Assembly (NCBI GenBank): GCA_001577635.1
Contig: LSBP01000022.1
Location: 1-56,517, forward strand
Length of the DNA: 56,517 nucleotides
Direction of reading: 5' to 3'
DNA from: Halomonadaceae bacterium T82-2
GTDB taxonomy: Bacteria; Pseudomonadota; Gammaproteobacteria; Pseudomonadales; Halomonadaceae
Both the position numbers and the translations under genes were made by a program. Below, one piece after another: positions 3,616 through 52,615 of the stretch. Within the stretch, counting starts at the first letter, position 1. Each line of letters opens with the position of its first letter. Below the pieces are notes generated by a model, which saw nothing but the letters and a program-made list of their open reading frames with translations, made no database searches and was not told the DNA's origin.

Positions 3616-4047
3616 ATGGCCGATCAGAACCATGAGCTGCGCCGTGCAGGCCTGAAGGTCACCCTGCCGCGCGTGAAGATCCTGCAGATTCTCGAGCGAT
3701 CGAAGGACATGGAAACCCACCTCAGCGCCGAGGACGTCTACAAGGCGCTGCTCGATGCCGGTGAGGATGTGGGTCTGGCCACGGTATACCGCGTTCTGAC
3801 CCAGTTCGAGGCCGCCGGCCTGGTGGTGCGCCATCACTTCGACGGCGGCCACGCCCTGTTCGAGGTCTCCCAGGAGGAACACCACGACCACATGGTGTGC
3901 CTGGAAAGCGGCAAGATCGTCGAGTTCTTCGACGAGGCCATCGAGCGCCGCCAGCAGGAAATCGCCGAGGAACACGGCTACGAGCTGGTCGACCATGCCT
4001 TGGTGCTGTACGTGCGCCCCAAGGACGCCGAGGCCCCCCACCAGTAG
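3616..4047 (+). CDS. fur: Ferric uptake regulator Fur
   Basis: A 143-residue iron-responsive repressor. The ATG at 3616 (MADQNHELRRAGLKVTLPR) is preferred to upstream starts because it matches the family N-terminus. The winged helix spans about 1-80 with recognition helix GLATVYRVLTQF. The metal-binding residues are present: His35, Glu83, the HHDH cluster at 89-92 and His127. Only one cysteine (Cys95) remains of the CxxC pair seen in E. coli Fur, since the second is replaced (CLESGK). Fur-box-like sequences at 51656-51704 suggest a target within this window. Confidence 0.96.
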   Translation: MADQNHELRRAGLKVTLPRVKILQILERSKDMETHLSAEDVYKALLDAGEDVGLATVYRVLTQFEAAGLVVRHHFDGGHALFEVSQEEHHDHMVCLESGKIVEFFDEAIERRQQEIAEEHGYELVDHALVLYVRPKDAEAPHQ

Positions 4048-50593: not shown

Positions 50594-50717
50594 GGTCGGG
50601 CGGCGGGCCTCATCGACAGGCGGGACAATCCGGGTAAGCTTACCAGTTCGCACTCGGGCGTGACGCGCGTAAGGTTGTCGCAGCGCCCTCGTCATGCACG
50701 CGACAAGGAGATTCGCC

Positions 50718-51635
50718 ATGTCCGGCGTCCAGGCGGCTCTGGGCCCTTTGTTCCTGTTGATCCTGCTCGGCGCCCTGCTGGGGTGGCGTCGCCTGCCTGC
50801 GGATACCTTCTGGCCGGCGATGGAGCGGCTGATCTACTTTTTGCTGTTTCCCGCCATGCTGGTATCGACCCTGGCCACCGCCGACGTCTCGCGGGTGCCG
50901 ATCGCCCAGGTGGCGACCGTTCTGCTGGGCGGTATCGCCGCCTTCGCCGCACTGCTGTGGTGGATCAAGCCGCGACTGGGGCTCGACGCGCCCGCCTTCA
51001 CCTCGGTCTTCCAGGGTGCGCTGCGCTTCAACACCTATGTCGGCGTTGCCGGCGCCGCGGCGCTGCACGGCCAGCCCGGCGCCACCGTGGCCGCGGTGGC
51101 GGTCGCCCTAATGGTGCCGACCATCAACGTGCTGTGCGTGGCCAGTTTCATCGCCGCCGGCACCCTGGGCCCGTCCAGCCTGTCGAAGAGCCTCGCCGCC
51201 CTGACCCGCAACCCGCTGATTCTGGCCTGCGTGGCCGGTATTGTGCTCAACCTGAGCGGCATCGGCCTGCCGGGCTGGAGCGAGCGCGCGGTGTCTCTGC
51301 TGGGCCGCGCCGCCCTGCCCCTGGGGCTGGTCGCCGTCGGCGTGGCACTGCGTCCACGGGCGCTGCTGCGCCTGGACCGCGGCGTGTGGAGCGCCAACCT
51401 GGTCAAGCTGGTGCTGATGCCGGCGGTGGTGCTGGCGCTGGGCGCGCTGGTCGGCCTCGATCCGGTGAGCCGTGATGTCACGCTGCTGTTCGCCGCCCTG
51501 CCCACCGCGACCTCGGCCTACATCCTCGCCCGCCAGCTGGGCGGCGACGCCGAGCTGATGGCCGCGCTGATCACCGGGCAGACCCTGCTGGCGATGCTCA
51601 GCCTGCCGCTGTGGCTGAGCCTGGCGGGCGGCTGA
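50718..51635 (+). CDS. AEC-family transporter
   Basis: A 305-residue, ten-helix carrier of the auxin-efflux/malonate-carrier superfamily. AAGGAG lies 7 nt before the ATG at 50718 (MSGVQAALG). Recognisable segments: FLLFPAMLVSTLATAD, QGALRFNTYVGVAGAAALHG (family RFNTYV), TRNPLILACVAGIVLNLSGIGLP, and FAALPTATSAYILARQLGGDAELMAALITGQTLLAM. The substrate is unknown. It ends 20 nt before the first Fur-like box of the candidate RNA gene. Confidence 0.9.
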   Translation: MSGVQAALGPLFLLILLGALLGWRRLPADTFWPAMERLIYFLLFPAMLVSTLATADVSRVPIAQVATVLLGGIAAFAALLWWIKPRLGLDAPAFTSVFQGALRFNTYVGVAGAAALHGQPGATVAAVAVALMVPTINVLCVASFIAAGTLGPSSLSKSLAALTRNPLILACVAGIVLNLSGIGLPGWSERAVSLLGRAALPLGLVAVGVALRPRALLRLDRGVWSANLVKLVLMPAVVLALGALVGLDPVSRDVTLLFAALPTATSAYILARQLGGDAELMAALITGQTLLAMLSLPLWLSLAGG

Positions 51636-51655
51636 TCGTCGGCCACCGCTTCATT

Positions 51656-51670
51656 TGAAAATGATTCGCG
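51656..51670 (+). promoter_or_regulatory. Upstream Fur-box-like sequence
   Basis: TGAAAATGATTCGCG matches 10 of 14 positions of the 7-1-7 Fur consensus (TGATAAT-n-ATTATCA). It is 34 bp upstream of a second such box, about 15 nt before the -35. Confidence 0.45.
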
Positions 51671-51676
51671 AAAAGC

Positions 51677-51705
51677 TTGACGCCACAAATGAGAATCAAT
51701 ATTGT
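51677..51705 (+). promoter_or_regulatory. Sigma70 promoter overlapped by a Fur-box-like sequence
   Basis: TTGACG (-35, 51677-51682), a 17-nt spacer, TATTGT (-10, 51700-51705), giving a start near 51712. The box TGAGAATCAATATTG (51690-51704, 10 of 14 positions of the 7-1-7 Fur consensus) covers the spacer and most of the -10, so bound Fe-Fur should block RNA polymerase. The AT-rich patch stands out in GC-rich surroundings. Confidence 0.6.
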
Positions 51706-51711
51706 TAACCA

Positions 51712-51824
51712 CGTGGTGTTCGTCAGGCACCACACCGGGCAGGCGCCGCGGGTGCCTGCCATGGTTATCTCCTCATCAAGCTAGTCACGGTCCTTGCGGC
51801 GGCTCATCGAGCCGCCGCCTTTCT
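51712..51824 (+). ncRNA. Candidate Fur-regulated small RNA (PrrF/RyhB-type)
   Basis: A predicted 113-nt transcript with no start codon plus ribosome site. It folds from the 5' end as stem 1 GTGGTG/CACCAC (51713-51733), stem 2 GGCAGGCGCC/GGTGCCTGCC with a GCG loop and one G-U pair (51738-51760), an unpaired 35-nt linker (51761-51795) containing TTATCTCCTCATCAAGC, and a terminator. The linker resembles, from memory, the target-pairing core of Pseudomonas PrrF RNAs; that similarity is unverified. It would lower iron-protein mRNAs when iron is scarce. It lies between convergent genes with nothing else to explain the promoter. Confidence 0.6.
51796..51824 (+). terminator. Intrinsic terminator of the candidate sRNA
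   Basis: GCGGCGGCTC, ATC loop, GAGCCGCCGC (10-bp perfect stem) then CTTTCT. It could also end read-through from the AEC gene. Confidence 0.75.
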
Positions 51825-51873
51825 GTGCGCGGGTGTCAAGCTGGGGCGGGAACGCAACGGAGGGCGTGGCGAC

Positions 51874-52608
51874 TCAGGCGTCGTGGCGCTCGAAGATCAG
51901 GTCGAAGACGCCGTGGCCGAGCTTCTCGCCGCGGCTTTCGAACTTAGTCAACGGGCGGAAGGCCGGGCGCGGCACGTAGACGCCCTCGCTCGCGGTGTTG
52001 CGCCACCCCGGCGCCGCGACCATCACCTCGGCCATGTGCTCGGCGTAGGGCTCCCAGTCGGTCGCCATGTGCAGCCAGCCGCCGGGCCGGAGCCGCGAGC
52101 GCACCAGCTCGACGAACGCCGGCTGGACGATGCGCCGCTTGTGGTGCTTCTTCTTCGGCCAGGGGTCGGGGAAGAACAGCTGCACGCCGTCGAGCCCGGC
52201 CTCCGGCAGGCAGTGGCGCAGCACCTCCAGGGCATCCTCGCGGTAGACGCGCAGATTGGTGAGACCGCGCTTGTCGGCCTCGTCGAGCAGCTTGCCCACG
52301 CCCGGAGCGTGGACCTCGATGCCGATGAAGTCGGTATCGGGATGGGCCTCGGCCTGCTCGACCAGCGAGCCACCCATGCCGAAGCCGATCTCCACCACAC
52401 GCGGCGCGCGGCGGCCGAACAGGGCGTCGAGGTCCTGCAGGCCGTCGGCCAGGCTGAGCCCCAGCCGCGGCCAGACCTCCTCGAGCCCGCGACTCTGGGC
52501 AGCGGTCATGCGACCGGCGCGCAGCACGTAACTTTTCACGCCGCGACGCGGCCGGGACTCACTGGACTGCGGGGTATCGACACTCACGCTGGGGTCACTC
52601 ATGGTCAT
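51874..52608 (-). CDS. trmB: tRNA (guanine-N7)-methyltransferase
   Basis: A 244-residue SAM enzyme that methylates G46 of tRNA. SAM loop [16 protein letters not shown], then [15 protein letters not shown], and the TrmB-specific [23 protein letters not shown]. Starts at 52608 (MTMSDPS) or 52602 are both possible; neither has a clear ribosome site, which suggests coupling to thiG, 7 nt upstream. Confidence 0.95.
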
Positions 52609-52615
52609 TGAAGGA

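Follow-up and report, generated by a model that had tools for sequence, protein, structure and literature searches.

The intergenic stretch between an AEC-type carrier gene and a trmB-type gene of Halomonadaceae bacterium T82-2 raises the question of whether it holds an iron-responsive small RNA gene, as had been proposed from the letters alone, and, if so, to which kind of RNA that gene belongs. The window analyzed, 56,517 nucleotides long, is one complete contig (C29) of a 3.42-Mb draft genome. Our answer, to which we attach a probability of about 0.9, is that the locus is a gene for a PrrF-type iron-sparing small RNA. The computed support comprises homology to PrrF, a conserved promoter, Fur box, structure, core and terminator, and complementarity to sdhC, and from these we infer expression, Fur binding, Hfq binding and repression of targets. 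The features concerned are as follows:

3646-4011, + strand: Fur-family domain, sharing its contig with the RNA gene
50694-51635, + strand: Mem_trans (AEC-type) carrier gene, upstream neighbor of the RNA gene on the same strand
51651-51675, + strand: distal element 5' of the -35, either an UP element or a weak resemblance to a Fur box (10-11 of 19 consensus positions)
51677-51705, + strand: sigma-70 promoter TTGACG-17-TATTGT, from an independent scan, sole promoter of its class in 1 kb
51685-51709, + strand: proximal Fur box, spanning the promoter spacer and -10 (13 of 19 consensus positions)
51712-51824, + strand: predicted small RNA of about 113 nt, from the fold and the RF00444 match of the promoter-to-terminator stretch, with its start inferred from the -10
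51713-51733, + strand: hairpin 1, from the fold and covariation
51734-51765, + strand: hairpin 2, from the fold; its 3' arm bears UGCCAUGG, complementary to the sodB start
51766-51795, + strand: unpaired targeting core or linker of 30 nt, from the fold and common to PrrF
51796-51824, + strand: intrinsic terminator, a 10-pair stem (51796-51818) and a weak U tract
51874-52611, - strand: trmB-type methyltransferase gene, convergent neighbor of the RNA gene

The identity of the RNA was apparent from the Rfam PrrF model RF00444, which, with open thresholds on a 261-base stretch, matched 51677-51826 (+ strand) over its full length (model positions 1-150 of 150) at 55.3 bits and an E of 5.4e-9; the only other match was a single one at chance level (E 1.8). 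The RF00444 alignment contains the PrrF core feature UUAUCUCCUCAUCA-GCUA-UCACGGU, and the window core GGUUAUCUCCUCAUCAAGCUAGUCACGGU equals the PrrF consensus GAUUAUCUCCUCAUCAGGCUAAUCACGGU at 25 of 27 core bases. Since 55.3 bits is under the Rfam gathering score of 90 bits for RF00444, a scan at Rfam's cut-off does not list this RNA, and the sole match at gathering threshold in the whole window is a tmRNA at 1287-1665. Judged by its sequence and predicted structure, the RNA is a PrrF-type homologue and not a formal RF00444 match. The original prediction of a Fur-controlled RNA resembling RyhB or PrrF is strongly supported at this level and can be stated more exactly as a PrrF homologue; of the two models it had put forward for comparison, PrrF gave the full-length match, though one below the cut-off, and RyhB (RF00057) gave none at E up to 10 on the 261-base stretch.

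The predicted promoter, with a Fur box over its spacer and -10, was recovered by the independent scan, in which it was the sole promoter of the TTGACG-17-TATTGT class in 1 kb, versus a shuffle mean of 0.1, and TTGAC was retained just 5' of the proximal box in 60 of 89 upstream regions from relatives aligned on that box. Against a 19-position Fur consensus, the proximal site scored 13, a value reached at 7 of 56,499 window positions, two of which are this same site in two registers. A Fur match of at least 12 was present in 99 of 100 homologous upstream regions, which are related copies and hence not independent; it was present in 131 of 2000 pieces taken at random from those loci and in 245 of 2000 sequences made by shuffling the upstream regions. 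A Fur box placed on a sigma-70 promoter is thus predicted, as in PrrF. Two Fur-box-like sequences had been claimed, however, and while the proximal one is conserved, the distal score of 10-11 of 19 is within chance in the window. In the aligned relatives the distal site carries an A-tract with ATTCTC or ATTCGC in 65 of 89 upstream regions (consensus aaTaAAAAAtATTCtCgTT, an A-tract with ATTCTC immediately 5' of the -35). It may be a second Fur site, an UP element, or both.

The predicted fold of the 113-nt transcript has an energy of -57.1 kcal/mol (z -4.80), a value equaled by none of 200 shuffles, and the fold and scan bore out the proposed succession of two stem-loops, a linker and a 10-bp terminator. 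The linker is open as predicted but is 30 nt long rather than 35 nt. Two terminator-like sites, including the stem at 51796-51818, occur in 1 kb versus a shuffle mean of 0.5, and the U tract that follows this stem in the window is poor (CTTTCTGTGC). The transcript had also been described as free of open reading frames; its length and fold stood, but a 7-codon ATG frame lies inside it at 51761-51784. A protein-coding reading was rejected, as the frame does not look coding because it is broken in relatives that have ATGGTTTCTCC in place of ATGGTTATCTCC.

Conservation of the promoter, linker and terminator in related genomes, on which the original prediction had staked itself, was found: these elements recur together with the Fur box and core, and hairpin 1 covaries. 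After reduction at 90% identity, 66 copies showed a nearly invariant core, a well-kept promoter and Fur box, and variable hairpins; the invariance of 51769-51788 partly reflects the use of a core pattern to choose the copies. In a DNA search with a 175-nt query the best match in many relatives was confined to about 51751-51795, at 95-98% identity, and three genomes (G003, G005 and G007) gave a second match of 72% identity over the promoter side. Hairpin 1, counted on its named structure, was paired in 98.9% of 190 cells, and in 15 cells both sides differed; its covariation was 0.248, against a shuffle value of 0.163 and at most 0.101 when slid. None of 500 shuffles came up to hairpin 1 on any of these three measures. 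Two others were weaker: 31 of 500 shuffles matched or exceeded its number of pairs with a change on each side, and 11 of 500 its number of further pair types. RNAalifold on a 30-copy alignment returned just 4 terminator pairs and did not recover hairpin 1, because gaps and two terminator registers spoil that alignment. Terminators were therefore counted as per-copy stems, and the best stem after the core had 7 to 11 pairs in all 101 copies; stems of at least 7 pairs were found in 336 of 2020 shuffles. The mean unpaired probability of the core was 0.64, versus 0.32 and 0.31 for the rest of the RNA, and exceeded 0.7 in just 34 of 101 copies (0.72 in the window copy).

With iron present, Fur would occupy the box across the promoter and the RNA gene would be off, whereas in iron scarcity Fur would lose its iron and the 113-nt RNA would be made. 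The unpaired core at 51766-51795, presumably with Hfq, would then pair with the ribosome-binding sites of iron-protein mRNAs and block their translation. Besides the Fur-family domain in the window, the host genome encodes a weaker second FUR-family protein elsewhere, and it also encodes Hfq.

The best predicted target is sdhC: the host sequence at its inferred GUG start is AGAGCCGUGAAUAGC, which pairs with GCUAGUCACGGUCCU of the RNA; GCUAGUCACGGUC of the core is predicted to pair across this start, and through this pairing the operon for succinate dehydrogenase would be the first to be shut down. With opening costs included, the pairing reached -12.7 kcal/mol in the host, where 2 of 120 control leaders were as good. 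In all 18 genomes compared, each with its own RNA, 0-2 of 100 controls were as good; these were 17 genomes of the family and one of another family, with the first RNA copy found per genome, and they are not independent. Without opening costs, 116 of 277 controls were as good by plain duplex energy in the host, a measure that was rejected as a target criterion since it does not separate targets from GC-rich leaders; by ungapped complementarity the figure was 23 of 277 in the host and ranged from 3 to 51 of 277 across genomes. Some members of the order that lack a PrrF match (e.g. G067 and G070) likewise retain the sdhC GUG start and the first codons of this gene, and therefore coding or other pressures may explain part of this conservation. 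As a marker of PrrF presence the GUG start is not discriminating and was rejected.

Near complements (at most 3 mismatches) of UGCCAUGGUUAUCUCCU numbered 14 genome-wide besides the RNA gene, versus 0 for the reversed pattern, a control whose Shine-Dalgarno and AUG content is not matched. By our reading of the matches, eight of the 14 lie at the starts of real reading frames: those of an Fe/Mn superoxide dismutase, FixH, ETF-QO, a 4Fe-4S FDH-type subunit, SufB, an MntP-type exporter, an ABC ATPase and a coiled-coil protein. For ETF-QO, an iron-sulphur enzyme, the match falls at a GTG that precedes an ATG by a few codons. Seven of the eight names came from Pfam; the labels FDH and coiled-coil are our own. 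With accessibility, controls as good numbered 1 of 120 for ETF-QO, 6 of 120 each for SufB, MntP, the FDH-type subunit and AcnA, 14 of 120 for FixH, 36 of 120 for both sodB and the ABC gene, and 62 of 120 for the coiled-coil gene, ranks that are not independent tests for genes picked by the near-complement search for their complementarity. Among mRNAs of the sdh, acn and sodB types, then, predicted pairing was good for sdhC and acnA and mixed for sodB; acnB was rejected as a target, its leader being random-like and no better than controls (64 of 120 as good). ETF-QO, SufB, the 4Fe-4S subunit, AcnA and sodB are predicted as further target candidates. The start of the MntP-type manganese exporter gene, at G000:C53:53314-53330, is near-complementary to the RNA, a possible iron-manganese link if the pairing occurs.

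These matches allow a reading in which a PrrF-type RNA serves mainly some job other than iron sparing, for example a balance of sodB and manganese via UGCCAUGGUUAUCUCCU, and it is an unlikely one. Its appeal is that sodB has the longest complementarity, 17 nt, equaled by 1 of 277 controls in the host and by 0-1 of 277 in 6 of 17 Halomonadaceae genomes, and that the manganese exporter is among the start-site near complements. However, opening hairpin 2 costs 12 kcal/mol in the host, which leaves sodB at its 36 of 120 controls, and with accessibility sodB had at most 2 of 100 controls as good in just 4 of 18 genomes (in G016 the fetched gene may be a different superoxide dismutase). By plain duplex energy 20 of 277 controls were as good as sodB.

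Complex I had been suggested as a natural class of target, with nuoB, nuoE, nuoF, nuoG and nuoI named, and this was not upheld. With accessibility, controls as good or better numbered 65 of 120 for nuoA, 72 for nuoB and 69 for nuoG, so that all three look random; nuoI (20 of 120) and nuoH (14 of 120) were middling, and nuoL, which had not been named, stood at 6 of 120. Of the five named subunits this comparison covered nuoB, nuoG and nuoI. Across genomes the search pattern placed nuoA in just 2 of 13, where 61 and 33 of 100 controls did as well. When accessibility was ignored, nuoH ranked first among 44 window leaders (-29.0 kcal/mol), and other nuo frames also ranked high. All nuo names except nuoA are our presumed assignments. 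A second Oxidored_q4 (nuoA-type) gene lies at G000:C46:7268-7531 in the host genome, beyond the window copy. The leaders of - strand frames at 3003 of L096 and 6745 of L092 have long complementarity to the RNA (GAGGAGATGAC) and by look resemble those of the neighboring AEC carrier gene.

The host genome has a single RF00444 match. At E<=0.01 the model matched 92 of 146 genomes, namely 82 of 91 Halomonadaceae (host included) and 10 of 55 others of the order, and none of 14 named control genomes. In a class-wide even sample at E<=0.001 it matched 3 of 274 (the host, one family member and one order member) and again 0 of 14 controls. The filters in both of these large searches were stricter and miss some weak matches. 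Matches at E<=10 are meaningless, 9 of the 14 controls having matched in a one-genome search at that level (none over the cut-off), and the distribution counts therefore use E<=0.01 or 0.001. Of the nine family members that lack a model match, some, such as G023 and G058, have weak core-like DNA matches. The exact 25-base core pattern was found in 70 stretches of named genomes, from genera that include Halomonas, Chromohalobacter, Salinicola, Kushneria, Cobetia, Larsenimonas, Litchfieldella and Modicisalibacter; all but one of these stretches, titled just Gammaproteobacteria bacterium, carry the name of a Halomonadaceae genus.

Just one of the 146 genomes exceeded 90 bits (G080, of another family of the order, at 127.5), and scores of order members outside the family spanned 28.7 to 127.5 bits, six genomes having at least 62, so that intermediates exist. 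These intermediates, together with the 25 PrrF consensus bases in the same place in the same layout, make it very improbable that an iron-regulated RNA unrelated to PrrF has converged on this layout, as the score below the Rfam cut-off and the hairpin sequences that differ from the Rfam consensus might otherwise suggest. Among 132 loci with the RNA gene, a redundant set with many flanks of just 1.5 kb and with the window itself counted three times, both AEC and TrmB were found at 64, AEC only at 29, TrmB only at 17 and neither at 22. Least credible of all is that the locus is just where the AEC carrier mRNA ends, a terminator and 3' end whose hairpins and promoter arose by chance: it does follow the AEC gene on the + strand and has a terminator stem, but it has its own conserved promoter, Fur box and core, and there are copies that lack an AEC match in the examined flanks.

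Two or three copies of the RNA gene were found in 28 of the 92 positive genomes, several of them in tandem at 200-400 bases apart. Tandem double or triple copies occur at G001:C19:110481-110848, G009:C16:167931-168312, G011:C19:25423-25790, G034:C1:3523160-3523889 and G122:C371:47923-48671, and a PrrH-like read-through RNA from such copies is possible. Extra diverged core-like copies lie beside intact ones at L005:1679, right after the terminator, and at L046:1928; these are possibly decaying or new siblings. We tentatively entertain, while considering it rather doubtful, a fuller reading in which PrrF is order-wide and Halomonadaceae have a variant whose hairpin 2 3' arm UGCCAUGGUU extends the core to a 17-nt antisense of the ribosome-binding site and AUG, with targets that start like AGGAGnnnACCAUGG and with repeated tandem duplication giving PrrH-like double transcripts. 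Were it true, the wider target list would be sodB, ETF-QO, SufB, the FDH-type Fe-S subunit, FixH and the manganese exporter MntP.

A PrrF-type gene at this locus would be ordinary in kind and new in place, as far as our literature search reached: within titles and abstract openings, with most subscription journals outside its range, no description of a PrrF- or RyhB-type RNA in Halomonadaceae was found. RyhB-like regulation in cheese-ripening microbes is called understudied in PMC12096840. The range of the PrrF iron-sparing RNA would thereby grow from Pseudomonas and Azotobacter to take in 82 of the 91 Halomonadaceae genomes sampled, in a family where scans at the Rfam cut-off miss it (1 of 146 genomes over the cut-off). 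It offers a concrete and easily testable predicted regulon, with sdhC first, and the genomes with one, two and three copies form a natural series for the evolution of sibling RNAs.

Among known systems, enterobacterial RyhB is a functional analogue, an iron-repressed RNA that binds target mRNAs, of which PrrF is called a functional homologue in PMC2851614; RyhB differs from the window RNA in giving no sequence or structure match at E up to 10, and PrrF and RyhB are likewise stated to lack sequence homology in PMC4211561, where PrrF is said to have been found originally through a search for a Fur site together with a terminator. ArrF of Azotobacter vinelandii is described as a PrrF homologue in PMC2851614. 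The closest comparison is with PrrF1 and PrrF2 of Pseudomonas, which are Fur-repressed and lower acnB, m-acnA and sdhD expression in low iron, according to PMC2851614; acnB, a PrrF target in P. aeruginosa in that account, has a random-like leader in the host genome. Relative to RF00444, the window RNA is single-copy, has different hairpin sequences, scores 55.3 against a cut-off of 90 and has a UGCCAUGGUU segment before the core that is missing from the Rfam PrrF consensus; its gene lies between AEC and trmB genes. In common with PrrF1 and PrrF2 it has Fur control (predicted here), two hairpins, a near-identical unpaired core and a terminator, and its predicted length of about 113 nt compares with the 116 and 114 nt given for them in PMC2851614.
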